IMG/VR virus record: IMGVR_UViG_3300028857_000014
Span: 1 to 40,724 of that record
Length of the DNA stretch: 40,724 nt
Reading direction: 5' to 3' (one strand)
From: a virus
Notes under the pieces: model-generated
Database searches by the model: none
Seen by the model: the letters and a program-made list of their open reading frames with translations, nothing else
What the model was told of the DNA's origin: nothing
Program-made: the position numbers and the translations under genes
Shown: piece by piece, positions 8,090 to 40,617 of the stretch
How positions within the stretch are numbered: position 1 is the first letter of the stretch
Layout: each line of letters begins with the position of its first letter

Positions 8090-9022
8090 TTAACAACGAC
8101 TTACTTTTCCATCTTTCACATATCTACTAATTGATGCCTCGCTAACTCCCAGCGCCTTAGCCATCGCTCTCTGAGAATCATAAATTTCACCAGTGTTCTT
8201 GTCTATGACTTTTTTACTGCACTTTTCAGCAGCTAGTTTTGCCATTTTTCGGCATTGTATCTTGTTCGCATCAGATGCGCGCCAAATATCCTGTCCTGCG
8301 CGGGCCGCCGCGAGATTCGCTGGGTTAGATGCAAAGGCTTTATATCCTTTTTTTGTAGACGCCTGCCCTTCTGGCGTGGCGGAATACGCGATTACCTTCT
8401 GCCGTTGCAATTCTTTTCCCTCTGCGCTCCTAGGGTCTTTTCTTCCCGCAAATATTCTTTTTAAGTGATCCGCCCCGCCTTCGGCCATCTGTTTTTTTGT
8501 TGCCGCTGATTTCATTGCTCGGTATTCTGGTCGCCTCCATGCTATCTTGCCCACCTCAGATTTTAATGGGGTTTTACAAAATTCAGCATACCCTTTTTTT
8601 GTTTCATGGGATACCTGCCTACCTTTTAATGCAGCACTTAACTTTGCTCGCCAAGCAGGGTTATCCCATACTCTTTCACGCATTAGAGCATGCATCACTG
8701 GGTTTGTAGCGGAATCTTGGCCTTGCCCTCCTTTGAGGATGTTATAGCCTTTTTTGTTGTTTGTTGAATCACGCAAATCAATCTCGGATATTTCCGCAGA
8801 ACAGCATTCATCGCGGCTATTGTGAGTGCTAATTATATGCATAATAGGCGCTCCGTGTTTTCTCCATGCACAGTAGACGGGGAGTTTTTTACCCGATCTA
8901 GCCGCGTACTTATGACTTTTATATCGAGACTCATAAAGTCCATTGGAATCCGTTTTACTCATTCCAATATAAACTTTTCCATTATTAAAAGTCAGCGCAT
9001 AAACAAAATAAACTACATCCAT
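8090..9022 (-). CDS. Free-standing GIY-YIG homing endonuclease with NUMOD-type tail
   Basis: 310 residues, A+T-richer than its neighbours. The N-terminal GIY-YIG nuclease motif is YFVYAL ... VYIGMS (residues 5-22), followed by RYKSHKYAARSG and HISTHNSRDE-like blocks that complete the domain. The middle (~100-250) has NUMOD3-like repeats; the last ~40 residues (KVIDKNTGEIYDSQRAMAKA, then LGVSEASISRYV) are an intron-endonuclease HTH. The gene ends with three stop codons in a row in frame (TAA TGA TAG). The ATG follows the U-tract of a terminator with no Shine-Dalgarno sequence, suggesting low expression. It lies between the capsid gene and the connector genes. Confidence 0.88.
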   Translation of the reverse strand: MDVVYFVYALTFNNGKVYIGMSKTDSNGLYESRYKSHKYAARSGKKLPVYCAWRKHGAPIMHIISTHNSRDECCSAEISEIDLRDSTNNKKGYNILKGGQGQDSATNPVMHALMRERVWDNPAWRAKLSAALKGRQVSHETKKGYAEFCKTPLKSEVGKIAWRRPEYRAMKSAATKKQMAEGGADHLKRIFAGRKDPRSAEGKELQRQKVIAYSATPEGQASTKKGYKAFASNPANLAAARAGQDIWRASDANKIQCRKMAKLAAEKCSKKVIDKNTGEIYDSQRAMAKALGVSEASISRYVKDGKVSRC

Positions 9023-9077: not shown

Positions 9078-10214
9078 CTACGCGCCCGACCTTCTGATCA
9101 CCGCAAATGGACGTTTAAGCATCACGCCCGCGCTCGCATTGGCGAAGACTTCTTCGTAGCCCTTCGTCAGTTGCTGCGCGCCGATGGTGACGAACTTGGC
9201 CGGAACCATCTGCATGAACACCTTGCCGTCGTCGGTGCTGCCTTCTGGATACGAATCGGCATACACGTAGAACACGTTTGCGCCACCGTTGGCGGCGTCC
9301 AATTCAGGGGCCGATTCAACTCGTACGTTCGGGTAGTTCTTCGACAGCCATTCTTGCACCGAGTAGCCCAGTTGCGTCGGGATCGAGATGTAATCGACCG
9401 ACGATGGACCCATCGCCCAGGTGATAGGCGTTTTCTTCGGATCGATGACGTTACCCGATTGCACACGCAGGGCGTTCAGGGCCGACAGAATATCGGCGAT
9501 GATTTCCAGCGTTGTCTTCGTGGCGAACGTGGACGTACCGGCTGCACCGTTCGGCAGGTTGACGTAGGCAGGCAGCGACGGATCGTTCAGGAAGCCATAC
9601 GTGCGGCCGGCGCCGTTGTTGAAGCCGTAGAAGCCGATGTAGTTACGCTGCACTTCCAAGCCCATGACAGCAGCCACGCGCTTTTCAGCGGCGCTGTTGT
9701 AGTTCATGGCCGATGCGCGCTTTTCTTCCAGGTAGCCGACTTGCAGGCCTTCTTGGTGGCGCACGATGGAGCGGCGTTCCCAGTTGGTGTTCCAGTTGGT
9801 CATCGGGACGTTGTTGCTGTCCTGGTAGATCGACGCGTTACCCGTGCGCTCGCTGAAACCTTGAACGATTTCTTCGTCCTCGATGCGGCCCATGGTAGTC
9901 TCGCCGATCAGGCGGTCAATGGCTCGGTCACGGGTGGTGACGAACACGAAGCCTGGCGCAAAATGCTGCAGGAACTGGATCGGCGTGGTGATCGATGGCG
10001 TGCTCAGTGGCGCGGTCAGGTTGGTATCCATCGCGCTGTTGATCATGTGCGCACCGTCCTTGTACGCAGAGTACATCTGGCCAATGGCCCGCTGCGTGAA
10101 GGTGATGCCGATGTTGTCCAGGGCGGCAACGTCTGCCATGGATTGAACTGGGTAATCGCTCAGTGCGCCCACTTTTCGGGCAGAGCGATGACCACGGATT
10201 TTTGTTTCTTCCAT
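9078..10214 (-). CDS. Major capsid protein (DUF2184)
   Basis: 378 residues. The N-terminal segment with DNIGITFTQRAIGQMYSAY, the conserved IPTQLGYSVQEWL near 290 and the C-terminal KRPFAVIRRSG fit the DUF2184 capsid family, an HK97-fold capsid protein found with DUF2213 and cement proteins. Length is normal for the family. The stop is TAG, followed by an intrinsic terminator, so amber codons do act as stops in this phage. Upstream neighbour is the cement protein, 13 bases away. Confidence 0.92.
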   Translation of the reverse strand: MEETKIRGHRSARKVGALSDYPVQSMADVAALDNIGITFTQRAIGQMYSAYKDGAHMINSAMDTNLTAPLSTPSITTPIQFLQHFAPGFVFVTTRDRAIDRLIGETTMGRIEDEEIVQGFSERTGNASIYQDSNNVPMTNWNTNWERRSIVRHQEGLQVGYLEEKRASAMNYNSAAEKRVAAVMGLEVQRNYIGFYGFNNGAGRTYGFLNDPSLPAYVNLPNGAAGTSTFATKTTLEIIADILSALNALRVQSGNVIDPKKTPITWAMGPSSVDYISIPTQLGYSVQEWLSKNYPNVRVESAPELDAANGGANVFYVYADSYPEGSTDDGKVFMQMVPAKFVTIGAQQLTKGYEEVFANASAGVMLKRPFAVIRRSGA

Positions 10215-10742: not shown

Positions 10743-12008
10743 TTACTTAACGTGCGTAGCCAGGTAGGCCGCGCCGGTGGATTTTTGAACGTCGATGGAA
10801 TCCATGCCGTATGCCTGCGATGGCGATGGACGGCCGGCCAGGTAGCTTTCGACGCGGATTTCGGCATTGTCTTTCGGCAGCTTCAATTGATCTGCGATAT
10901 ATTCCGCCGTCTGCTTGAGTGTCATCGAGTCATGGGCAAAACTGCCAATGAAATGGCTGGCACGCGAAGCCAAGTCATTCTTTTTGGCGATTTCCACCAT
11001 GATGGCTGCCGAGTCCATTGCTGCAGGCTTGGCTTCCAAAGCTGTGATTTTCGCCGTCAGTTCTTTGACATGCTTCAAGGCCGCGTCCATGGCTTCGGAT
11101 TTTTTGCCGTCTTCTTCTTCTTTAGCTTTCCGTGCGGCTTCTTCCTCGGCCGCTTTCTTTTCGGCCTCGGCATCATCCATGGCCTTTTTATCGGCCTCTT
11201 CCTTCGCTTTCTTTTCGTCTTCGTCCTTGGCCGCTTTTTTCTCGCCCTCGGCTTCGTCCATTGCGCCTTGCATCTTATCGACGGTCGCAGTGAGCGCAGC
11301 GACGGCCTTTACCAGTTCTTCCAGTTCCATTTGTTGCTCCTTACTTTCAAGTTTGAATGTCATGCTGTCCATGACTGACACATCCGGGCCGCTGCGACCC
11401 TTTACAACTAATGCACTGTGATTGCCGCGTATCCGGCGCTGGACGTATTCATACGCCTGGCCATCAAACACTCCGCTTTCTTTTGACCATTTGCAACTAT
11501 AGCCGGCTGAAACCTGTTCTTTGCCAATTTCAATTGAATCGAGCGTTTGTGCGGAATATACACGCAAATTGGCGCGGAGGTATGGGAATTCAAAATATAC
11601 CTTTTCCCCGATTACTCCTTCGACGCGCTTATTGTCTGTTTTGACAAGGGTTCCGATATTGCCTAGCAGGTTCTCGGGATGCTCGTTTATGAATGGCGTG
11701 AGCTTGAATGACTCGATGGTTTCAGGATCATTCAATTCCTCTTGCGGACGAAGCACCATGTAAATCTTGCTTTTGTCATCCGCGCCGATTTGCGAGCCGA
11801 GATAGGGGAATACGCCAACCTTGGAGATTGGATTGTCTTCGATGGTCATCCAGCCGAAGTCATCGAACTTGCGGGCGCTTTCGTCCATGGCCGCGCCAGC
11901 TTCTTTATAAGCAATTGCAGCGGCCTGCTCGGGGCTATGTCCCGCTGCAATCAGCTCCTCTATATTGGCCTGGATAATTTCTTTGGAACTGCCTTTTTTC
12001 AGCGGCAT
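10743..12008 (-). CDS. DUF2213 prohead protease/scaffold protein
   Basis: 421 residues. A short N-terminal helix (SPEQAAAIAYKEAG) precedes a beta-rich domain (~45-215) of DUF2213 type, a group related to prohead serine proteases; residues ~225-310 are a long coiled coil of Glu/Lys/Ala repeats (EEADKKAMDDAEAEKKAAEE), the usual signature of a scaffolding core; the C-terminal ~100 residues are helical and end in a capsid-like segment. It is likely to organise capsid assembly and be cleaved. Catalytic residues cannot be confirmed from sequence alone. Confidence 0.83.
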   Translation of the reverse strand: MPLKKGSSKEIIQANIEELIAAGHSPEQAAAIAYKEAGAAMDESARKFDDFGWMTIEDNPISKVGVFPYLGSQIGADDKSKIYMVLRPQEELNDPETIESFKLTPFINEHPENLLGNIGTLVKTDNKRVEGVIGEKVYFEFPYLRANLRVYSAQTLDSIEIGKEQVSAGYSCKWSKESGVFDGQAYEYVQRRIRGNHSALVVKGRSGPDVSVMDSMTFKLESKEQQMELEELVKAVAALTATVDKMQGAMDEAEGEKKAAKDEDEKKAKEEADKKAMDDAEAEKKAAEEEAARKAKEEEDGKKSEAMDAALKHVKELTAKITALEAKPAAMDSAAIMVEIAKKNDLASRASHFIGSFAHDSMTLKQTAEYIADQLKLPKDNAEIRVESYLAGRPSPSQAYGMDSIDVQKSTGAAYLATHVK

Positions 12009-12009
12009 T

Positions 12010-12165
12010 TTAAACTTTCCATCCGGCTATCTGGTAGCCCATCAGAAACAACATGCGATTACATGGCTTCTCATCCATGTTGATTGTCAGCAGCATGAGA
12101 GCGGGGCCAATCAGTTTCTTGACGGTCAGCGATAAGGTAACGATCATTTCATCTGCGATATTCAT
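12010..12165 (-). CDS. Small late protein, function unknown
   Basis: 51 residues starting MNIADEMIVTLSL, with GAGGG eight bases upstream of ATG and its TAA one base before the DUF2213 start. It has an amphipathic to hydrophobic central segment (KKLIGPALMLLTINM) that may be a weak membrane or packing helix. Not recognised. Good ribosome site and snug fit between neighbours support a real gene. Confidence 0.6.
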   Translation of the reverse strand: MNIADEMIVTLSLTVKKLIGPALMLLTINMDEKPCNRMLFLMGYQIAGWKV

Positions 12166-12183
12166 CTATTGCCCTCACATGCC

Positions 12184-12315
12184 CTAAAAATCAATGCCAA
12201 GAATTTGATATTGACGGCCCGCTTTGCAGAACACCAATCGACCAAAAATCTTCATCACCGAGCATGCGCCAGCTTTGGCATATTCAAATCCAGCAAACTT
12301 GTAATGCTTATACAT
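12184..12315 (-). CDS. Small late protein, function unknown
   Basis: 43 residues (MYKHYKFAGFEYAK...), basic and aromatic, with GAGGG just upstream of ATG. The gene begins 8 bases after the stop of the head morphogenesis gene and ends 18 bases before the next small gene. It has a beta-like pattern including FGRLVFCKAGRQYQILGI. Not recognised. Confidence 0.6.
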   Translation of the reverse strand: MYKHYKFAGFEYAKAGACSVMKIFGRLVFCKAGRQYQILGIDF

Positions 12316-12323
12316 GGCATCCC

Positions 12324-13151
12324 TCACATATCGTCAAAATTAATTACCGGCAGGAAACTACAGCGGCAAAATGGACTTTCACCGGGGATAACATTTTCTC
12401 CCTTGTCCCCAATTGGCGCACCTTCGGATAAAACGAATTCTTTCCCATTATATGCTTTATGCAAAGGACGCGGCTCTTTCGTTCCGCCAGTGTGAATCCA
12501 GATTCCTTTTTTCACGCCGGCCGCTTTTGCCCGTTCAATGTTGACAGTATTGTATGCTTTTCGTGACTGATCCAGAGCGATATTCCGCGACCTACGTTCC
12601 TACATTCCGCCGTATTTCTTAATCTCTTCCTGCAGCGGCCCAATGCCACCAGTTCCAGTAATCGAGCGGTTCACCGCGCCCTTGATGCGATCAAGGTATT
12701 GCGTCGGGATCGACTTAATCAAATCCACGTTTTCGCTGATACTGGCCTCAAACATGTCGCGCATACCCTGCGGCATATCCTCGACTTTGAGTGTTACCTC
12801 GCCAGTCATCTTCTTGAATGAGCGTTTCAGATTCGCTTTGCTCTGCTCGTCAACCTCTCCCAGCATCCTGCGCGCTAGGCGGCTTGCATAGCTCGTGTAC
12901 AGGCGGTCAAAACGCGAGGTAAGCAGATTGAGCATCTGCCGCGCCTGCAGTGCAATGCTGGCATCCTGCGCGAAGAACTCCTTTGCGTCGGGCGTGCGGA
13001 AAAGTTCCTTGACGGCCTCTTGCGTGGCCTTGGTCATTTCCCGCGCCAGCTTGCGCAGCTCCCGCGAGTATCGCTCTTCGATCCCCACGGGGTTATGCAG
13101 CGCCAGGCCGCGCAGTTGCTTAGGCTGTTGCGGTGGCGTCGTCTTGGTCAT
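12324..13151 (-). pseudogene. MuF-like minor head protein interrupted by an in-frame amber codon
   Basis: The first 183 codons encode the helical N-terminal part of a head morphogenesis protein (MuF/SPP1 gp7-like); then TAG at 12602-12600; then 91 codons in the same frame encode the conserved rest of the family (RNIALDQSRKAYNTV, then IWIHTGGTKEPRPLHK, then GESPFCRCSFLPVI). No frameshift is needed: one base change (for example TCG to TAG) explains the break. Termination would leave the protein without its conserved core, so the gene is either inactivated, dependent on amber readthrough, or a sequence error. The start is uncertain: ATG 13151 (MTKTTPPQQP) is chosen, with ATG 13169 possible; both lie inside the portal gene. 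It follows the portal as in related phages. Confidence 0.8.
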
Positions 13152-14634
13152 CGGGTATATCCAGGTCATCAGGCATATCCGCACTCATGCCGGCGAATTC
13201 AGATTGCGCGTCCTTCGTCAGTGCTTCGCGGATATCATTGCCATCTATGGCGCCAGTCTGCTGCAGTGCTGCATACGTGTCGGCCTTGAGCTTGTTGATT
13301 TCCGCGATTTCTTTTTCGGTCGGCTCATCCAGCGGGTTCCATACTGGCTCAATGTGATACTTGCCGTTGAATTCCGAGCGCGACAAGATTTCATAGTGGC
13401 GCTCAAGGAAGGGCGCACCGTCATTCTCTTGCAGGCTGGCCAGCAGTTCGCGGTAGCTCTCGACCTCGTAATCACCCGATGCGCCGAAGCCCTTGGGAGA
13501 CGTGCCAAGCAGTTTCGTAGCCGGCACTTCGGCAATCGCGGCCACAAGCTGATACTGCGTCATGATGACTGAATCAACGTCCGCCAGACTTGTTTCGTGC
13601 TGCTCATACTCTTCTTCCTTCCCGATGATGCGAGTTCCGTAGTTATCACGTAAGGAAACTTGCTCTGCCATGCGCTCCATGAATCGTTGGGGATTTTGAA
13701 AAGCGCTATCAAGATCAAGCTTTACTACATTCATGCGCTTGGTCATCGCCAGTAGCGGCCCTTCATTGGCCGTGCGCTCTGCTGCATAGATGCGCTCGTA
13801 AATCTGTTGCGTAAGCGGCACGCCGCCGTACAGATAGGCAGGCTTGAGAATATCCGGCACCTCGGCATGGCGAACGATAATCAGGTGCGTGCGGTGATAG
13901 CGCTTGCTGCCGATCTGCCACCATGTCGGCTCATAGAAATGGATGCTCGATGCGTCCATGATGGAATCGTCGCCCATGAATGGCGTCATCCAATACGGGT
14001 CTACCTGGCTGATTCCGCGATAGCTGCCAGGCTTGATGCCATCGGGATTATATGGCTTGAGGTAATAGTCGGGATCGTCCGACTCGACAACGAATAGAGC
14101 GATGCGAATGCCGAAGATGCGCTTATTGCGGATCAACTCAACCAGATTGTGATGCACGCGGAATTGCTTATCGAGCTTGCATATTTCCGCGATCAGTTCG
14201 GGTGTCTCTTCGTTTCCGTCGTTGATGGTCGGCTTCCAGCCATTGCGCACGGCGTCCTTGGCCGGCATCGAGCACGCCTTATCAATCAACCACTGCTGCG
14301 CGAAGATGGCGCAGGCTTGGAAGCCGATAAAGCCTTGGCTTGCATACCAGGACATAAGCGAGTCAGGCATGCGCTGCGTAGCCGAAACGAAAGCATTCTT
14401 GCTGGCGTATGGATTACTGCCGGGGTCACAGAAGGCGTCCATGGCGTGCTGCCTGCCATCCTGCGAGCCTTTGAATGTCGGCGCCTTGATCATCGCGTCA
14501 TACATGGCCCCACGGTCAAGAGGCTCCATGGAGATATCCGTACTGAACTGGCCAGGGCGCCCAACGTTATTCACAGCCTCAGCCTCTTGCACTGGCTTGC
14601 CTTCTTTGCCGCGCACCCAATCGAAAAATCCCAT
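13120..14634 (-). CDS. Portal protein (DUF1073)
   Basis: About 504 residues from ATG 14634 (MGFFDWVRGKEG); an in-frame start farther upstream would lie inside the terminase gene. Recognisable blocks are WYASQGFIGFQACAIFAQQW, then QVDPYWMTPF, and TKLLGTSPKGFGASGDYEVES, all typical of the DUF1073 portal group. The acidic C-terminus (DDLDIPDDQDD) is also usual. The dodecameric portal sits at one capsid vertex, docks terminase during packaging and later holds the tail. Starts 7 bases after the large terminase stop. Confidence 0.9.
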   Translation of the reverse strand: MGFFDWVRGKEGKPVQEAEAVNNVGRPGQFSTDISMEPLDRGAMYDAMIKAPTFKGSQDGRQHAMDAFCDPGSNPYASKNAFVSATQRMPDSLMSWYASQGFIGFQACAIFAQQWLIDKACSMPAKDAVRNGWKPTINDGNEETPELIAEICKLDKQFRVHHNLVELIRNKRIFGIRIALFVVESDDPDYYLKPYNPDGIKPGSYRGISQVDPYWMTPFMGDDSIMDASSIHFYEPTWWQIGSKRYHRTHLIIVRHAEVPDILKPAYLYGGVPLTQQIYERIYAAERTANEGPLLAMTKRMNVVKLDLDSAFQNPQRFMERMAEQVSLRDNYGTRIIGKEEEYEQHETSLADVDSVIMTQYQLVAAIAEVPATKLLGTSPKGFGASGDYEVESYRELLASLQENDGAPFLERHYEILSRSEFNGKYHIEPVWNPLDEPTEKEIAEINKLKADTYAALQQTGAIDGNDIREALTKDAQSEFAGMSADMPDDLDIPDDQDDATATA

Positions 14635-14641
14635 ATGTTCC

Positions 14642-16021
14642 TCAATAATCGTAGAAGCTCTTGCCTGCCGAACAAAGTCCTGCGCTGTTTGCAATAACAA
14701 AGCTGTCAGCAATATTTGGAGATGCGACCTCGCGTTTCGCCAAATCTTTTTTTGACTCGACTTTCACCTTGCCGGCATTATCAAAGTCTCGTTTCGGCGT
14801 CGCTAATTCATCCATCAGCTTTTCAAGCAATTTAGAATCGCACTCGCTGGATATGCTAATCATATCATCTGCTGCAAATTCAATCCCTTTCGTGACGGCA
14901 AGATAGGTGTTTCGGAAGCGGTCAGCAATAAGCCACCAAGCCTGCGCTTTGAGGTTGGAGAAGAAATCCTTATTCTTGATCTTCGTTTCCCCGTAATTGG
15001 AATCTGGCTTTGATACGGCCGCACCGGCATTGAATTTGAAGTGGCTTGACCATCCCAGGCTATTGAGCGTCGATCCCGTCCCGGCGCCCACGCCAATAGA
15101 GTCATAGCCTATTCGCTGCGCATCTTGCGTTTTTGCCGTCAACCGCACTCGCTCTGCGGACTCGCGCAATTCATTCTCGCCACCTTTCCATTCATCCAGG
15201 CCAGTAGCGATAGAGCCATCCATGGTCGTAGTGGCGTTCTTATCGGCGCCATCGTCTGCAACGTCATAGCCGACTGTCTTGCCGCCTGACCATGATCCAG
15301 AGGCCGGGATAACCGTCTTGTGCGCATCAATAGCATATTGAATCCAGCTGCGCTTGATGATTACGCTTGCGTCATCGTCTTTTGGCACTCCCAGGTAGAT
15401 ATGGGCAAACTCGTCTGCATCTTCTTCCTTGGCCGCGTTGATGATTTTCAGCATCGTATTAGACAAGAACGGATTCTCATCATAGTTGATTTGACGCACG
15501 ATAGTTTCAGGCGGCGGATTCCGAACGAACCGCTTATACGCAAAATCAGTAGCAAGCTTGGGATTGAATATCACCCAGCATTGCGAATGGTCTTTACGAA
15601 TGGTCGGCTCTAGCGTCTTCCATTGAGCCTCTGTGAGATTGTGCGCTTCCTCGATCCAGAGAATATCCACGGACTCTAGCGACTTAATCTCGTCAATCGA
15701 GCGCCACAGGCCATAGAACATGAACTCCGAACCTGTTGCCGTGTTGTAAATCTTGTCTCGCTGAATATCAAAGCGCGATTGCAGGCCGAAGCGTTCAATC
15801 TGAATCTTGAGCAGGGCATAAACTGATTCGCTGATGCGATTCTGAAATTGTCGAACGCACAACACGCGAAGTTTATATTTGTTCGCCAGGAATGTAACGA
15901 AGCCGGCCGCATCCCATGACTTTGAGCTTGCGCGCCCGCCGATCAATACCCGATTGCGCGCTGGCTTCGTCCAGAATTCCTTTAGGGCAGGATTCAGAGA
16001 TGCTCGACCTTCACTCGCCAT
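14642..16021 (-). CDS. terL: Terminase large subunit (PBSX/Terminase_3 type)
   Basis: 459 residues from ATG 16021, overlapping the small subunit gene by 11 bases. ATPase domain: Walker A GGRASSKS (residues 28-35), Walker B VDILWIEEA (118-126) and a coupling motif near VIFNPK. The C-terminal RNase H-like nuclease domain begins at VGYDVADDGADKN, giving the first acidic metal ligands; a later conserved block is YDSIGVGAG. The motor cleaves concatemeric DNA and pumps it through the portal. Confidence 0.92.
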   Translation of the reverse strand: MASEGRASLNPALKEFWTKPARNRVLIGGRASSKSWDAAGFVTFLANKYKLRVLCVRQFQNRISESVYALLKIQIERFGLQSRFDIQRDKIYNTATGSEFMFYGLWRSIDEIKSLESVDILWIEEAHNLTEAQWKTLEPTIRKDHSQCWVIFNPKLATDFAYKRFVRNPPPETIVRQINYDENPFLSNTMLKIINAAKEEDADEFAHIYLGVPKDDDASVIIKRSWIQYAIDAHKTVIPASGSWSGGKTVGYDVADDGADKNATTTMDGSIATGLDEWKGGENELRESAERVRLTAKTQDAQRIGYDSIGVGAGTGSTLNSLGWSSHFKFNAGAAVSKPDSNYGETKIKNKDFFSNLKAQAWWLIADRFRNTYLAVTKGIEFAADDMISISSECDSKLLEKLMDELATPKRDFDNAGKVKVESKKDLAKREVASPNIADSFVIANSAGLCSAGKSFYDY

Positions 16022-17963: not shown

Positions 17964-18039
17964 TGGTGCCGCTCAAAGGAATCGAACCCTTGACCCACTG
18001 CTTACGAAGCAGTCGCTCTGCCATCTGAGCTAGAGCGGC
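17964..18039 (-). tRNA. tRNA-Thr (anticodon CGT)
   Basis: 76 bases with full cloverleaf: acceptor GCCGCTC/GAGCGGC, anticodon stem ACTGC/GCAGT with loop TTCGTAA, T-arm GGTTCGATTCC, encoded CCA. Reads ACG. Confidence 0.93.
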
Positions 18040-18047
18040 GAAACTAG

Positions 18048-18120
18048 TTGTCGATGCTGGTATCGAACCAGCGACCTAGCGATTATGAGCCGCTTGCTCT
18101 ACCGTCTGAGCTAATCGACA
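18048..18120 (-). tRNA. tRNA with anticodon CAT, probably Ile2 (AUA) rather than Met
   Basis: 73 bases; acceptor TGTCGAT/ATCGACA, anticodon stem AGCGG/TCGCT with loop CTCATAA. CCA is not encoded (A is followed by CTA), unlike the other tRNAs here. The anticodon arm and variable loop (TCGCT-AGGTC) resemble bacterial tRNA-Ile2, in which C34 becomes lysidine and AUA is read. Elongator Met is the alternative. Confidence 0.88.
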
Positions 18121-18121
18121 A

Positions 18122-18195
18122 TGGAGCGGATATCGGGAATCGAACCCGAGTCGTAAGCTTGGAAGGCTTCTGCTGTGCCAATCAGCTATACCCGC
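18122..18195 (-). tRNA. tRNA-Gly (anticodon TCC)
   Basis: 74 bases; acceptor GCGGGTA/TATCCGC with the discriminator U73 typical of glycine tRNA, loop CTTCCAA, encoded CCA. The outer anticodon-stem pair is weak. Reads GGA. Confidence 0.92.
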
Positions 18196-18203
18196 TTTGA
18201 AAC

Positions 18204-18289
18204 TGGTGCCGGGGGCGGGGTACGATCCCGCAATCCCTAGGGCGGCAGATTTTAAGTCTGCTGTGTATGCCAAATTCCACCACCCCGGC
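18204..18289 (-). tRNA. tRNA-Leu (anticodon TAA)
   Basis: 86 bases with long variable arm, acceptor GCCGGGG/CCCCGGC, anticodon stem GCAGA/TCTGC with loop CTTAAAA, encoded CCA. The T-loop is ATCGTAC, lacking the usual T54 and A58 (A54 and U58 instead). Reads UUA. Confidence 0.88.
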
Positions 18290-18294
18290 AAATC

Positions 18295-18378
18295 TGGTGC
18301 GCAATGAGGGACTTGAACCCCCAATCCTTTCGGCACTGGTTTCTAAGACCAGCGTGTATGCCATTCCACCAATTGCGC
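18295..18378 (-). tRNA. tRNA-Leu (anticodon TAG)
   Basis: 84 bases with long variable arm, acceptor GCGCAAT/ATTGCGC, anticodon stem CTGGT/ACCAG with loop CTTAGAA, normal T-arm GGTTCAAGTCC, encoded CCA. Reads CUA and other CUN codons. Confidence 0.92.
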
Positions 18379-18384
18379 ATTATT

Positions 18385-18471
18385 TGGTGCATCAGGATGG
18401 ATTCGAACCATCGCGCTTTTTACAGAACGGGGTTACAGCCCGTCGCCTTCAACCACTCGGCCACCGATACA
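18385..18471 (-). tRNA. tRNA-Tyr (anticodon GTA)
   Basis: 87 bases, class II long variable arm, acceptor TGTATCG/TGATGCA, anticodon stem ACGGG/CCCGT with loop CTGTAAC, T-arm GGTTCGAATCC, encoded CCA. First tRNA in the direction of transcription. Confidence 0.92.
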
Positions 18472-18844: not shown

Positions 18845-20596
18845 TCAATAGCCATCGAATGCGCCAATGGTGGCCGAAGCTGTTACATACGGCTGCCCAT
18901 CGTTATACCGCGACCCGATAGTGGTCAATGTCGTCAAGCCAGGCGCCATAGTTTTAATCGGCCGGTTCGTTGCCTCATTGTATCCAAGCTGAGCACGCTT
19001 CAATGGCGCATTCGATTCTGGTGCGTACAGCAGCGAATTCTGGTCAAGAGCAATGCTGGCTGTCGCCAAAGATGACTGCCACAACGTGAAATAGTAATCA
19101 GACTTGGCGGCGGCCTCCCACGCATAAGACCCCGCACCAGATGGGCAATAGATGTTCTTTTGCCCAATAGGATTCGATTTTGCCGCTCCAATACCGGCGC
19201 GTAACGAGCCACAAATAGGGTAGCGAACATTCACTGAATTCTTAGTGTAGAACAGGTTATTGGAGATATTGCAGAAACCCGTTGCCGCGTTGCCCTCGGT
19301 GAACCAGTAACTAGCACCTTCATACGATAAGCCATTACAGCGGTCGTCATCAAGCACAACAGTATTCTGCGTGAACGAATGACCCGAGCCGCCACTGGCG
19401 GCAAAGCCGCGACGTTGAGGTGCGATGATCAAGTTGAAGCTGGCCTTGTTGTTGGTGTTGACAGTGTTGGCAGTGTCCGTAGACTCAACACCAGCAACCG
19501 TCTTGACATTGGCGAACCAGATGCCACCCAACGCCGAGTTGGTCGCGTAACGGTTGCGCGACAGATCGCCAACGTTGTATTGAATGGTGCAATTGTCATT
19601 GTCCGACCATAGCTCAACGATGCTGTTTCCCGATACGTCCTGACCAATATTCTTGAGCACCTTGCCGCCCGAAGTGAACGAGAACTCAACAACGTTGTTC
19701 GTGATGTCCTGCCCGCGACAACCCTGCACGATGGCGTTCGTTGCACGTTTGCTGGTGGTCGCACCAAATATTTGGAACGCATCGCCCGAACCAGTCACGA
19801 CCAGCCCATCAGTGCCGATATGCGACCCGCTGCAACCGGTGAACATCAGGTCATTGACCGTCGCCACGTTAGTTGTTGATGCTGAACCGATTTGCGCGGC
19901 GCACTCATAGCCGAGCATCGTGTCAAGGCCAGCCACATGCACATATCCTGTCGCAGCGACATCGCTCAACAGAACACGGAATGGCGTCTTGGCCTTGGCC
20001 AGTTCCATCATCCCCAAGCGTGGGTCAGCGCCATCAAACGGGCGGATATACAGCACGCCGGACTGATACGTGGCCGTGCCTGGCGCTGTTAGGCTGACGG
20101 CCGGGCTGGTGTTGTATGCCACTTTGATCAGGCGAACAAGCGACTGAAAGCAGGGGACTTCGGTGGCCATAGCAATCGACCAGATGTTAAGCTGCGCATC
20201 GACGCTTGCCCATCCCAGTTCAACCGTGCCACCTGTGATGATAGGCAGCGTCTGTGCGTCGCCATAGGGGCATACGGTGAAGGGCCGACCATTCGACCCA
20301 TTTGCGGTCATCGTCAAGCCTGCACCCGTCACCCGCGTTGTGGTGCCGCGCTTGATGCCCAGCGTCTCGTTTGACATGTCACCCCGGCAAACGCTTTCAA
20401 GCTGCGCCTGCGTGAAATATGGGTGCTTGAACGTGCCATAGCCAAAGCTAGTCGCAGCGGCGGTTGGGTCAAAGTAAATGGTAGGGCGCAGAATGAACCC
20501 GCCCGCGTACAAGTCGATGCCGTTAAGTGTGTCGGGAAGCCAGAATAAGCCAGGGGGGCTTACGGGAAGCGCAGTAGAGCGATTAGGGTAGCTCAC
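18845..20596 (-). CDS. Right-handed beta-helix tailspike/receptor-binding protein
   Basis: 583 residues from GTG 20596, which overlaps the upstream stop (GTGA); a TTG four codons earlier is possible. After a short N-terminal region (LFWLPDTLNGIDLYAGG) comes a long run of short strands with Asn/Gly/Val/Thr turns (~200-470: IVQGCRGQDITNN, CTIQYNVGDLSRN), the look of a pectate-lyase-like parallel beta helix; the C-terminus is a different domain ending SATIGAFDGY. Such proteins bind and often degrade surface polysaccharide. It lacks an obvious long virion-attachment domain; the 85-residue partner upstream may supply attachment. It lies outside the main tail operon. Confidence 0.75.
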   Translation of the reverse strand: MSYPNRSTALPVSPPGLFWLPDTLNGIDLYAGGFILRPTIYFDPTAAATSFGYGTFKHPYFTQAQLESVCRGDMSNETLGIKRGTTTRVTGAGLTMTANGSNGRPFTVCPYGDAQTLPIITGGTVELGWASVDAQLNIWSIAMATEVPCFQSLVRLIKVAYNTSPAVSLTAPGTATYQSGVLYIRPFDGADPRLGMMELAKAKTPFRVLLSDVAATGYVHVAGLDTMLGYECAAQIGSASTTNVATVNDLMFTGCSGSHIGTDGLVVTGSGDAFQIFGATTSKRATNAIVQGCRGQDITNNVVEFSFTSGGKVLKNIGQDVSGNSIVELWSDNDNCTIQYNVGDLSRNRYATNSALGGIWFANVKTVAGVESTDTANTVNTNNKASFNLIIAPQRRGFAASGGSGHSFTQNTVVLDDDRCNGLSYEGASYWFTEGNAATGFCNISNNLFYTKNSVNVRYPICGSLRAGIGAAKSNPIGQKNIYCPSGAGSYAWEAAAKSDYYFTLWQSSLATASIALDQNSLLYAPESNAPLKRAQLGYNEATNRPIKTMAPGLTTLTTIGSRYNDGQPYVTASATIGAFDGY

Positions 20597-20850
20597 CGAG
20601 CGCTCCAAACGTCACCATTAATGCCAGTAAAGCGAGCATGGCTCACGGGGGCAAAGATGCTAACAGAAATACTTCCAGCGCTGGAGTTATCGTATGTCGG
20701 CGTGAAGTACGTTGCGCCGCCATCGGTTGAAAGCTCAATCAATCGGCCGGCAGCAGAGCTAATCAGCGAGACAGTAGCGGGCCAATTCCATAAGGCAATG
20801 TTTACGGGGAATGGCGTGGAATCCGCCAGGGCTGCGCTTTTGAAAGCCAT
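20593..20850 (-). CDS. Small virion-associated protein preceding the tailspike
   Basis: 85 residues, beta-rich (AGRLIELSTDGGATYFTPTY), no charge clusters, no signal peptide. The DGGATYFTPTYD style is common in phage fibre or adaptor beta domains. It is the first gene of the tailspike unit and overlaps the tailspike start by GTGA. Likely a tail-fibre adaptor or decoration protein; this is inferred from context. Confidence 0.65.
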   Translation of the reverse strand: MAFKSAALADSTPFPVNIALWNWPATVSLISSAAGRLIELSTDGGATYFTPTYDNSSAGSISVSIFAPVSHARFTGINGDVWSAR

Positions 20851-23532: not shown

Positions 23533-23834
23533 TTCGCCACCTCGCGGCAGATTTGCTTGCCGTCTGCGCCCATGCGCGGAGTCGGCGCCGTTTGGAATAT
23601 TGACAGGTATTGGCAACCAGTCTCAACGTCGGTGTAGACTTGAAGGCCTGGATTTACGTCCGCCTTCGGCCCTTGCGCGGACCGGTCAATATTGCCGCAC
23701 CCGGCGCACAGCAGCGCCAGCAGAATGAACATAACGGAAGTCACAGCGGCACGTAATTTCCTTGTCTTCGGAGTGCCAAGGAATAAGCAGCATAAAACTG
23801 AACCAATACCGAGCAGAATGATCGATGCCTTCAT
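23529..23834 (-). CDS. Membrane/lipoprotein-like protein with DUF6440-like C-terminus
   Basis: 101 residues. Two hydrophobic segments (~3-20 and ~33-47); the second ends LLCAGC, a lipobox, so translation may also begin at the internal Met (MFILLALLCAGC) to give a small lipoprotein. The C-terminal 35 residues (VYTDVETGCQYLSI ... PRMGADGKQIC) resemble the DUF6440 fold. Overlaps neighbours by 4 bases on each side. Confidence 0.65.
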   Translation of the reverse strand: MKASIILLGIGSVLCCLFLGTPKTRKLRAAVTSVMFILLALLCAGCGNIDRSAQGPKADVNPGLQVYTDVETGCQYLSIFQTAPTPRMGADGKQICREVAK

Positions 23835-24751
23835 TGCGCGCCCTCCTTCGCATCCTCGGAAAAACGATCTTTAGTCATGCCTGCGACTGGCCACACAACA
23901 GTAGCTCCAGTCGGGGAAAGCTTTACAGCGATAGCTTTCAGCGCCCAATTGATATTAACCACTTCCACAGGCTCCTTTCCTCCGCCCCATGTTTTTCTAT
24001 ACACCATGTCGCCTTTCTCGATGCTGAAATCAATCGGCTGCGCATCCTTGGTGCCGGTTACGCTGGCGATGATGGATGGAAGATCAAGCCCAAAAACAAA
24101 ATTCCTTGCCAGTGCAATCTCAGCAACGGCATTATTCACCGCCACAGCAACCGCTAGATCACGTGCAGCGCGGCCTCCGGCTTCATGCTTGTAGGCGATG
24201 GCTTGCCCATCAGCATAAGCCTTTCGCACCGATTCCGCCGACGCGTCAGCCGGCACTACCTGGCCCGCGTCAATGGCGTGGCGCAGGGCAGCGTTGGCGA
24301 CGGCTTTAAGGTCTGTTGCATTTTCAGGGCCGCAGCTGACAAATGCAAGATGAAGGTCATCTTCCCCAATTTGCGTTTCAGGATATGTTGGCGTTGGCGC
24401 GGGCCAACGACAATGACTGAAATTCTTATCGTCCGGCTCTACAAATGTTATTCGTCCAGAAGAAATGCATACCAGCTCATCGCCGACGAATATCGGCTTG
24501 CCATCAATGAAGCCCAGGGGGAGCATTACGAGACGCTGGACAACGGCTGGATGGCCATGATCAGTCGTGCCATCAATGCGAAACGCAGCGGCCTCTTGGT
24601 CGCCATCTACTTCAATAGCGATGATCGGATGGGTTGGATGCTTGCGATCCCATTTTATGACTTGCACGGCCTCGCCGCGCTCACCACTAAACGGCGCGCC
24701 CGCCTTCGCATGCTCCAGGTTAAAAGGCCGGCTGAATTCTGGCTTGCTCAT
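23831..24751 (-). CDS. Conserved phage protein, function unknown
   Basis: 306 residues, soluble. It appears to be made of parts: an N-terminal beta domain (~1-80, FNLEHAKAGAPFSGERGEAV, matching a recurrent phage 'FDLEKAKAG' style module), a middle with a helical alanine-rich segment (~150-235), and a C-terminal beta part (VYRKTWGGGKEPVEVVNINW). Not assigned to a function. Overlaps both neighbours by 4 bases. Confidence 0.65.
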   Translation of the reverse strand: MSKPEFSRPFNLEHAKAGAPFSGERGEAVQVIKWDRKHPTHPIIAIEVDGDQEAAAFRIDGTTDHGHPAVVQRLVMLPLGFIDGKPIFVGDELVCISSGRITFVEPDDKNFSHCRWPAPTPTYPETQIGEDDLHLAFVSCGPENATDLKAVANAALRHAIDAGQVVPADASAESVRKAYADGQAIAYKHEAGGRAARDLAVAVAVNNAVAEIALARNFVFGLDLPSIIASVTGTKDAQPIDFSIEKGDMVYRKTWGGGKEPVEVVNINWALKAIAVKLSPTGATVVWPVAGMTKDRFSEDAKEGAQ

Positions 24752-27385: not shown

Positions 27386-28035
27386 GGCTTGGGCGCTTCA
27401 ATCTGCGCTGGGGCAATGAATTCTTGCGCGCATTGCATCTGGATCAATGGGGCGCTTGTGCCACCAGCCATGACAGCTTGCGCCTTCGCCTTGTCGCCAA
27501 TCAGCAACGGCTTGAACATGAAATTAGCCGCCGCCTTGCTGTTGTGCGCGTTCGCCTGGCCGATCAGGATGGGCGCGTAGTCTGGTATCTCGCCGCGCAT
27601 ACGGTATCCCTTGTAACGCGTCTTGAAGTCATTCCCAACGAATGGCCACGCTTTGTCATCCTGCGAACAAAGCCAGATCCAGCCGCCCATATCGGCAAGC
27701 ACGCGGTGAATGATTGCGTCATCGAAAACAACGTCCTGATATGGGCCAGCGCGCCTTACTGCCTCTTCCGCCTTAGACCATGCAATAGCCGACTGGTCGC
27801 CGGTGCTGCCTTGCATCATCTTGACGAACTCGGATACCTTGGGAAGGAATGAGCCTGACGTATCCGGGTTCTGTACGTGCGCCCATGCTGCTTTACGAAT
27901 GTCCGGGAACTCGTACACTTTCAAGCTGTTCCAGTAAACGTCGATCACACCGTCCGATATTTCCTTGCCGTAATAGTCGCTAAGGCTCGTCATCAGCGTG
28001 GCAAACTGAATCTGCTGCTCAGGAGTGTTCTGCAT
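27382..28035 (-). CDS. DUF6475-type protein, likely replication-associated
   Basis: 217 residues. N-terminal FATLMTSLSDYYGKEISDGV resembles the helical fold of phage helicase-loader-like proteins (family DUF6475), followed by KAAWAHVQNPDTSGSFLPKV, then a domain with WIWLCSQDD. It directly follows a gene encoding the end part of a phage replication protein, so a loader/inhibitor role in phage DNA replication is likely but not shown. Confidence 0.65.
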   Translation of the reverse strand: MQNTPEQQIQFATLMTSLSDYYGKEISDGVIDVYWNSLKVYEFPDIRKAAWAHVQNPDTSGSFLPKVSEFVKMMQGSTGDQSAIAWSKAEEAVRRAGPYQDVVFDDAIIHRVLADMGGWIWLCSQDDKAWPFVGNDFKTRYKGYRMRGEIPDYAPILIGQANAHNSKAAANFMFKPLLIGDKAKAQAVMAGGTSAPLIQMQCAQEFIAPAQIEAPKP

Positions 28036-28347: not shown

Positions 28348-29571
28348 TCATCCTTTTACGCATACAACTTGGCGCAAGGTGTGCTCAATGCTGACAAGAT
28401 CGGCTTGCGCAGCCATAACCGCATCAATATCTTTGTAGGCGGCTGGAGTCTCATCGATTACTTCATCGTCCTTGCGGCACTCAATACCAGCCGTAGCGGC
28501 TTCATGGTCGGCTAGCGTAAAACGGCGGCGAGCCTCCGCACGCGACATGGACCGGCCGGCACCATGCGAGCATGAGCAGAAAGAATCGGGATTCCCCTTA
28601 CCTCGCACAATGAATGACTTGGCGCCCATACTGCCGGGGATGATCCCCAGGTCGCCCATGCGCGCTTGGACGGCACCTTTTCGCGTCACTAAAACATTCT
28701 GGCCGAAGTGGTTTTCATGCGATACGTAGTTGTGGTGGCAGTTGACGGCACCACAATCACAGGTAAAAGCCTTCGGCACAGCACGCGACAAGGCGCCCAA
28801 CGCGGCCACCATCATCAATTCTCGATTTGCTTTGGCAAAGTCCTGCGCCCAATGAACGGCTTTCAAATAGTCGTTAAACAGTGCGGAGCCTTCTGGAATA
28901 TAAGCCAGATCCTTATCAGGTAGATTAATGAACCAGCGTTCCATATCCTTCTTAGCCAACTCAATGAAGTGTGACCCAATCTTGTTTCCGACACCGCGTG
29001 AGCCACTGTGCAACATGATCCAAACGCGATCAGATTCATCGAGGCAGATTTCTACAAAGTGATTTCCGCCACCGAGCGTGCCAAGGTGCGCTGCTGAACG
29101 CATGGCCGCTGCGCCAATTGCTGGGTGCTTGTCAATCAGGGGCTGCAATCCTGGCAGCATGCCGCCAAAGATACGCAACTGCTGATCTGGCACATTTGCC
29201 CATGCGCCACGATCACCCGCCATACCATTATTGGTCCTGCCATGCGGAATTACACGCTCCAATTCAGAACGCAGAGCGTGCAGGCTATCGGGAAGATCGC
29301 TAGCAGTAAGTGTCGTGCGCTGAGCCACCATTCCACAACCGATATCCACGCCAACTGCAGCCGGGATGATGGCTCCACGCGTGGCAATGACGCTGCCGAT
29401 GGTAGCGCCCATACCCCAATGAACATCAGGCATGATGGCTATATGCTTATGGATGAATGGCATCGCCGCCATATTATCGAGTTGCTGGCGCGCAGCGTCT
29501 TCCAGTTGTACGCCATTTACCCATGCCTTAATAAGGCCGCCTTTTGATCCTTCGATTGCTTGAAATGACAT
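28348..29571 (-). CDS. rtcB: RtcB-type RNA ligase (tRNA-splicing/repair ligase)
   Basis: 407 residues, standard family length. All active-site blocks are present: MPDVHWG (47-53), VGVDIGCG with metal-binding Cys79, GGGNHFVE (167-174), HSGSRG (188-193), NCHHNYV (277-283) and SHGAGR (335-340), whose His336 matches the guanylylated histidine of E. coli RtcB. It joins 2',3'-cyclic phosphate to 5'-OH RNA ends using GTP and manganese, the ends left by anticodon nucleases. Ribosome site GGAGATAGC. With six tRNA genes in the same phage it most likely repairs tRNAs cut by host defences; that role is inferred. Confidence 0.93.
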   Translation of the reverse strand: MSFQAIEGSKGGLIKAWVNGVQLEDAARQQLDNMAAMPFIHKHIAIMPDVHWGMGATIGSVIATRGAIIPAAVGVDIGCGMVAQRTTLTASDLPDSLHALRSELERVIPHGRTNNGMAGDRGAWANVPDQQLRIFGGMLPGLQPLIDKHPAIGAAAMRSAAHLGTLGGGNHFVEICLDESDRVWIMLHSGSRGVGNKIGSHFIELAKKDMERWFINLPDKDLAYIPEGSALFNDYLKAVHWAQDFAKANRELMMVAALGALSRAVPKAFTCDCGAVNCHHNYVSHENHFGQNVLVTRKGAVQARMGDLGIIPGSMGAKSFIVRGKGNPDSFCSCSHGAGRSMSRAEARRRFTLADHEAATAGIECRKDDEVIDETPAAYKDIDAVMAAQADLVSIEHTLRQVVCVKG

Positions 29572-35049: not shown

Positions 35050-35471
35050 TCGATCAATCCTTTCTTGCGTAAAATTTCATGAGTTCGATCCACAGCAGCA
35101 TCAAAGCCAGTTTGCAACATTTCGTAGCTGATGCCATCAGGACGCGGCGCGGCGCCATCCAGAACAGCATGGCATGCATGGCAACCGAAGCAGCCGGAAA
35201 TATCTGGCGCTTTCAGGCCCATGCCCTTGCCATCCGATAGGCGATTGCTATGGCAGAGCACAACTGTTTCGGGATTCCCATTGCAGACGCCGGGGATTCG
35301 CAACGTACAGTCCTGGCCCCGTGCCGCCTTTCGTATCGGCGTCATGCGTGGCTCCTTACTTTTCATCTTTGACTTGCGCTGCATTTCCTTGCGCGGCTTT
35401 CCAGCCTTAGCAAAGCCGCCCGACTTCATCGCAGCGCCTTGCTTCATGGGAGTTTTGCGGGATAGGCTCAA
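35046..35471 (-). CDS. DUF1364 (YbcO-type) nuclease-like protein
   Basis: 141 residues from TTG 35471, where TTGA overlaps the upstream stop. The N-terminus (SLSRKTPMKQGAAMKSGG) is the usual Lys/Arg-rich start of this family. The core has CTLRIPGVCNGNPETVVLCH, then GCFGCHACHAVLDG: an HNH-like zinc fold with conserved His and Cys. DUF1364 proteins are linked to phage recombination. Internal ATG 35447 would lose part of the basic start. Confidence 0.8.
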   Translation of the reverse strand: MSLSRKTPMKQGAAMKSGGFAKAGKPRKEMQRKSKMKSKEPRMTPIRKAARGQDCTLRIPGVCNGNPETVVLCHSNRLSDGKGMGLKAPDISGCFGCHACHAVLDGAAPRPDGISYEMLQTGFDAAVDRTHEILRKKGLIE

Positions 35472-39495: not shown

Positions 39496-40617
39496 ATGAG
39501 CGAAGTTACGAATGAAGGCCAAGCCTCGATGCAGTTGGCCCCGATGCCAATGACCAGCACCGCATCGCTGGTTTTGGACGTTGCCAGCATGGAAAGCATC
39601 ATGCGCATGGCCGATGTGATGGCTGGAAGCCGCACGACGATTCCAGCGCACCTCAAGGGTAGCTCGTCCGATTGCGCGGCTGTGATCATGCAAGCGATGC
39701 AATGGAAAATGAACCCTTTCGCAGTTGCTCAGAAAACGCATATCGTCAACGGCACATTGGGCTATGAAGGCCAGTTGGTCAATGCTGCCATCACGGCCAG
39801 CGGTGTGACAAAGGATCGTTTCAACTATGAATGGTTCGGAGCATGGGAGCGCATCATTGGTAAGACTAAGGTTGTCAACGTGCCAGAAAAAGGCACAAGG
39901 GGCAAAGACGATTATAAAAAGGCGTATCAGTTTCACGCATCAGACTATGACCTGAATCTGGAAACTGGCCTTGGCATTCGCATATGGGCAACCTTACGCG
40001 GCGAAACAGAGCCACGCGAATTGACCCTGCTTCTGGCGCAGGCTACCGTGCGTAACTCGCCACTGTGGGCCACCGACCCACGCCAGCAACTCGCATATCT
40101 GGCCGTGAAACGCTGGGCGCGCCTGTACGCTCCAGATGTAATCTTGGGCGTCTATACGCCCGACGAGTTGGAAGAAGGAAATCGTGAAATCCGAGATATC
40201 ACGCCTGTTGGCGCCGACACTACGCAAAGCATCGCCGCCGCGCCAGAAGCATCGGCAGACCTGGTGGCTCAAGCAAAATCCGCCGCAAGCAAAGGCGTTG
40301 CCGCATATCAGCAGTTCTGGAAAGATGCTGGCGCTCAAGGCCGCAAGTCGTTGGCTGCGCATCATGACGGCTGGAAGGCAGACGCAACCGCCGCTGACCA
40401 GTCCCGCACCATTGATGCCGAGCCAGTACTTAATGACAAGAAAACTCTTTCGGCCGACATGCAGACGATGCTGGACGACTTGAAAAATGACGCGGCAGGC
40501 GGCGTGGAAATGCTTGGCGCCATGTGGGAGCGCCTGTCGGATGCCACGAAGGATGCCTTGTCCGATGAGTATCCTAAGCTGATGGCCATTGCCGAGGCTA
40601 CGGGCGGCGTGAAATGA
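39496..40617 (+). CDS. recT: RecT-family ssDNA annealing protein
   Basis: 373 residues. The block PAHLKGSSSDCAAVIMQAMQ, then WKMNPFAVAQKTHIVNGTLG and YEGQLVNAAI is the conserved RecT/RedB-like core (~50-100); YLAVKRWARLYAPDVILGVY (~195-215) completes it; the C-terminus is a variable acidic/helical tail. It anneals single strands in phage recombination together with an exonuclease. ACGGAGAG precedes ATG. Partner YqaJ-type gene overlaps its stop. Confidence 0.9.
   Translation: MSEVTNEGQASMQLAPMPMTSTASLVLDVASMESIMRMADVMAGSRTTIPAHLKGSSSDCAAVIMQAMQWKMNPFAVAQKTHIVNGTLGYEGQLVNAAITASGVTKDRFNYEWFGAWERIIGKTKVVNVPEKGTRGKDDYKKAYQFHASDYDLNLETGLGIRIWATLRGETEPRELTLLLAQATVRNSPLWATDPRQQLAYLAVKRWARLYAPDVILGVYTPDELEEGNREIRDITPVGADTTQSIAAAPEASADLVAQAKSAASKGVAAYQQFWKDAGAQGRKSLAAHHDGWKADATAADQSRTIDAEPVLNDKKTLSADMQTMLDDLKNDAAGGVEMLGAMWERLSDATKDALSDEYPKLMAIAEATGGVK

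Follow-up and report, generated by a model that had tools for sequence, protein, structure and literature searches.

The MuF-like head morphogenesis gene of the phage sequence analysed here is interrupted by an in-frame TAG codon, which raises the question of whether the codon is read through, is reassigned to an amino acid, or is a nonsense change in an otherwise ordinary gene. The window is the whole of IMGVR_UViG_3300028857_000014, a virus record that is 40,724 b long. Translation of the minus strand from 13151 to 12324 gave a single frame of 183 residues, TAG (12602-12600), 91 sense codons and TGA, in agreement with the original prediction. The TAG is codon 184 of a gene of 275 codons, or 276 with the stop. 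Amber readthrough yielding two forms, a mutation in a defective prophage and a sequencing error had been offered as explanations.

The interrupted gene and the head module

When translated through the TAG, the frame matched Pfam PF04233 (Phage_Mu_F) at 1.4e-10, above the curated cut-off, with residues 155-266 aligned to positions 2-111 of the 112-position profile. The part after the stop also matched PF04233 by itself (2e-07), and the 183 residues before it, searched alone against Pfam, matched no family at E<=0.001, PF04233 included. The amber codon is located approximately 30 residues inside the MuF domain, where it opens the x-RRA...IARDQ segment of MuF-like proteins; the interruption had been predicted to fall at a conserved point, and it does. 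The invariant positions in an alignment of 17 sequences were I191, G212, W218, R228, H231, C262 and C264. Because every one of these comes after the stop, a truncated product would be without the domain core.

Table 1. Coordinates of the MuF-like gene, its parts and neighbouring head genes in the window
Feature	Position	Strand	Description
MuF-like head morphogenesis gene	12324..13151	-	PF04233, phrog_324; interrupted at codon 184; intact in sister record
In-frame TAG	12600..12602	-	single base (12601) differs from Ser codon of sister phage
Part before the stop, 183 aa	12603..13151	-	N-terminal region and start of MuF domain; no Pfam family at E<=0.001
Part after the stop, 91 codons and TGA	12324..12599	-	most of MuF domain; holds all invariant positions (17-sequence alignment)
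Portal protein gene	13120..14712	-	phrog_4660, phrog_146; directly upstream, overlaps MuF-like gene; intact
Maturation protease gene	10743-12008		downstream of MuF-like gene
Major capsid gene	9078..10214	-	ends in TAG; downstream of MuF-like gene

The gene order is portal, MuF, protease, capsid (Table 1), and the interrupted gene thus has the adjacency to the portal gene within the head module by which a MuF-like gene is recognised. The head genes checked (terminase subunits, portal, protease and capsid) have PHROG family matches and look intact; the earlier statement that all other head genes look intact is true of these. The phage is myovirus-like, with tail sheath and baseplate genes present. 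The major capsid gene is followed directly by a homing endonuclease gene (phrog_314), at 8090-9022 on the minus strand. Elsewhere on the minus strand, two long open frames (18845-20608 and 23831-24751; 587 and 306 aa) matched nothing in PHROG or Pfam at E<=0.001.

A near-identical record and the wider family

An IMG/VR search identified a sister record of the same phage, IMGVR_UViG_3300029989_000020 (62,655 b), which matches the window at 99.99% across its 40,724 b. Three single-base differences (12601, 27748 and 40368) and one gap of 1 b separate the two. From position 1 to 27747 of the window, the amber base at 12601 is the sole difference. The difference at 27748 is synonymous and that at 40368 is an Asp/Glu change in a RecT-like gene; the gap, at window position 35311, is 20 bases from the end of the sister record. 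The ends of the sister record overlap by approximately 147 b (with one 1-b gap) over a stretch matching window positions 35291-35437, although they do not carry an exact repeat. Because of this overlap, the sister record is probably a complete genome of approximately 62.5 kb, of which the window would represent about two thirds. The sister record also contains an RdgC-like exonuclease gene (11587-12837, plus strand; PF04381, 9.6e-103) near RecT-like and YqaJ recombinase genes.

At the amber position the sister record has a Ser codon, and its protein is an uninterrupted 275 aa that matches PF04233 at 7.4e-11 and phrog_324, annotated head morphogenesis, at 3.6e-66. The frame after the stop is the same in both records, with no decay. 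When viral contigs were scanned with the exact pattern around the amber site, the sister record was the sole match.

The comparison was extended to 18 intact sequences, comprising the sister, three further relatives from IMG/VR (61-73% identical, one of them present a second time in a fourth record) and fourteen from phage records (46% to approximately 23%), so that identities to the sister ran from 73% down to approximately 23%. Alignment with related MuF-like genes, one of the checks that the original prediction had proposed, placed Ser or Thr in the amber column in 17 of the 18 and Gly in the remaining one; no stop was found there in any of the 18, and no relative shows the gene split. Against three of the relatives, dN was much smaller than dS on either side of the amber codon, with downstream dS near or beyond saturation. 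Until very recently, on this evidence, selection would therefore have acted on both halves as on a single functional protein. Among 84,980 cellular genomes no relative of the MuF-like protein was found, and an exact-pattern search around the amber site also gave no match; there were consequently no prophage copies to compare.

Origin of the amber codon

The TAG is almost certainly a private one-base nonsense change, and the contig would then either carry a base-call or consensus error or have captured a rare null (loss-of-function) variant. The codon has no dedicated function and is neither conserved nor programmed. In principle the wrong copy could be that of the sister record, but all of the relatives argue against that. 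No special mechanism is needed: approximately 3.7% of random coding single-nucleotide variants (SNVs) in these genes create a stop, the probability of at least one among three is approximately 0.11, and one nonsense SNV is therefore unremarkable. The explanations first offered fared unequally, in that mutation or error gained support from the sense codon of the sister, whereas a defective prophage is unsupported, since all of the head genes tested proved intact and the Pfam and PHROG matches of the subset of proteins tested included no integrase.

Between the two forms of a private change, we somewhat favour an error of sequencing or consensus calling in the window contig. The difference is a single base, private, nonsense and in a gene under purifying selection. 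A conserved gene with a private nonsense change is what an error would be expected to give, because selection filters variants and not errors; nonsense changes should be depleted among real polymorphisms but not among errors. The change is, moreover, of the G:C to T:A type that oxidation during library preparation also gives, which is suggestive only; raised G:C>T:A errors have been reported (PMC8748355). However, the other two SNVs, one synonymous and one Asp/Glu, resemble neutral variation, so that some real variation between samples may exist.

That the contig captured a loss-of-function variant which is real and arose recently in the phage population is a serious possibility, if the less probable of the two. 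Three SNVs per 40.7 kb are compatible with true strain divergence, and the identity of the gene after the stop to that of the sister fits a very young mutation. If the change is real, translation would end after residue 183 with most of the MuF domain absent, and the head would be without a functional MuF-like protein, with infectivity probably reduced. The loss of such a protein had been assumed to be costly, an assumption that now appears too strong: SPP1 gp7, one of the well studied MuF-type proteins, is reported to be dispensable for assembly, with approximately 25% of gp7-less virions infectious (PMC6316719). A real null could thus be survivable, since SPP1 phages without the comparable gp7 stay partly infectious. 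Against a real variant, none of the other copies and relatives examined has an interrupted gene, which implies that selection maintains it.

Amber readthrough, programmed or tolerated, would yield a short and a long form with the aid of the phage tRNA-Tyr(GTA), which in the original prediction made readthrough conceivable. The 91 open codons after the stop and the retained domain speak for readthrough, but we consider it very improbable. Readthrough is disfavoured, and mutation or error supported, because the 99.99% identical sister has a sense codon; reads with a sense codon at this site had been named in advance as a refutation, and the sister record comes close to that. A programmed stop would be conserved in close relatives, and the site is sense in the sister and all other relatives examined. 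Moreover, the residue at the site in those relatives is that of a Ser/Thr position and not the Tyr or Gln that readthrough was expected to insert, and the part before the stop, as a short form, matches no family by itself. A literature search on readthrough in minor capsid genes found nothing.

The tRNA genes gave no positive support to the near-cognate argument. The window and the 62.7-kb sister have the same six tRNAs (Thr-CGT, Met-CAT, Gly-TCC, Leu-TAA, Leu-TAG and Tyr-GTA), so the amber-free sister carries the identical set. No suppressor tRNA with a CTA anticodon, which reading of UAG would require, is among them; the 'tag' of tRNA-Leu is its anticodon, which decodes leucine codons. That the amber codon is a real allele maintained in one population, from which near-cognate decoding by tRNA-Tyr or another tRNA would make small amounts of full-length MuF-like protein along with the short form, is given very little credence. 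The six-tRNA array and a gene for an RtcB-type tRNA splicing ligase (phrog_1075, 1.5e-147) lie at 17964-18470 and 28348-29571 on the minus strand, and their co-occurrence may point to tRNA repair or to a defence against host tRNA cleavage.

Reassignment of TAG to a sense codon, as in the code-15 crAss-like phages, was also considered. Among 51 hand-picked window genes, the stops were TGA in 29, TAA in 21 and TAG in one, the major capsid gene, so that TAG is a rare terminator in this set and reassignment has that much in its favour. However, the capsid genes of two relatives stop with TAA at the position homologous to the TAG of the window. Since they end at the same place, TAG is, by this comparison, a normal terminator in this phage, as had been claimed from the capsid gene. 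No other family-matched gene tested is split by TAG, and counts of open frames with each stop codon in turn taken as sense did not single TAG out. Code-15 phages leave TAG unused as a terminator and have many in-frame TAGs; the single in-frame case here is private to one record. With the capsid TAG standing where relatives stop and no suppressor tRNA, recoding was rejected as exceedingly improbable.

A split gene whose C-terminal part has its own start was rejected as equally far-fetched: GTG and TTG codons are present after the stop, but the first common start (GTG, 12515) is internal to the domain, beyond several of its conserved residues, and no ribosome-binding site is recognisable ahead of it. 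The sole ATG is two codons from the gene end, and the gene shows no split in the relatives examined.

Comparison with known systems

The private nonsense change carries a caution, in that a single-base difference in a metagenomic phage contig mimicked recoding or readthrough, and comparison with a single near-identical record sufficed to show that the amber codon is private to this contig. If it is a real null, a natural phage population would be tolerating loss of a MuF-type protein, as laboratory work has reportedly shown for SPP1 gp7.

The locus resembles the TAG-recoded phages (code 15, crAss-like) in having an in-frame TAG in a late structural gene and TAG as a rare terminator. It differs from them in that there is one in-frame TAG, which the sister does not have, the TAG of the capsid gene terminates, and a suppressor tRNA is absent. 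The classical amber mutants of phage head genes are similar in that a one-base change from sense to amber occurs with all else intact; here the sequence comes from a metagenomic contig, and so the change may be a base-call error. The MuF and SPP1 gp7-type proteins share with this gene the order portal, MuF, protease, capsid and a PF04233 domain with conserved W, H and CxC. Among them, the head morphogenesis protein of Pseudomonas phage KLEP17-4 is 46% identical, by alignment, to the intact sister protein. The copy in the window differs from these proteins by the amber at codon 184, whereas the sister and the relatives examined are intact.
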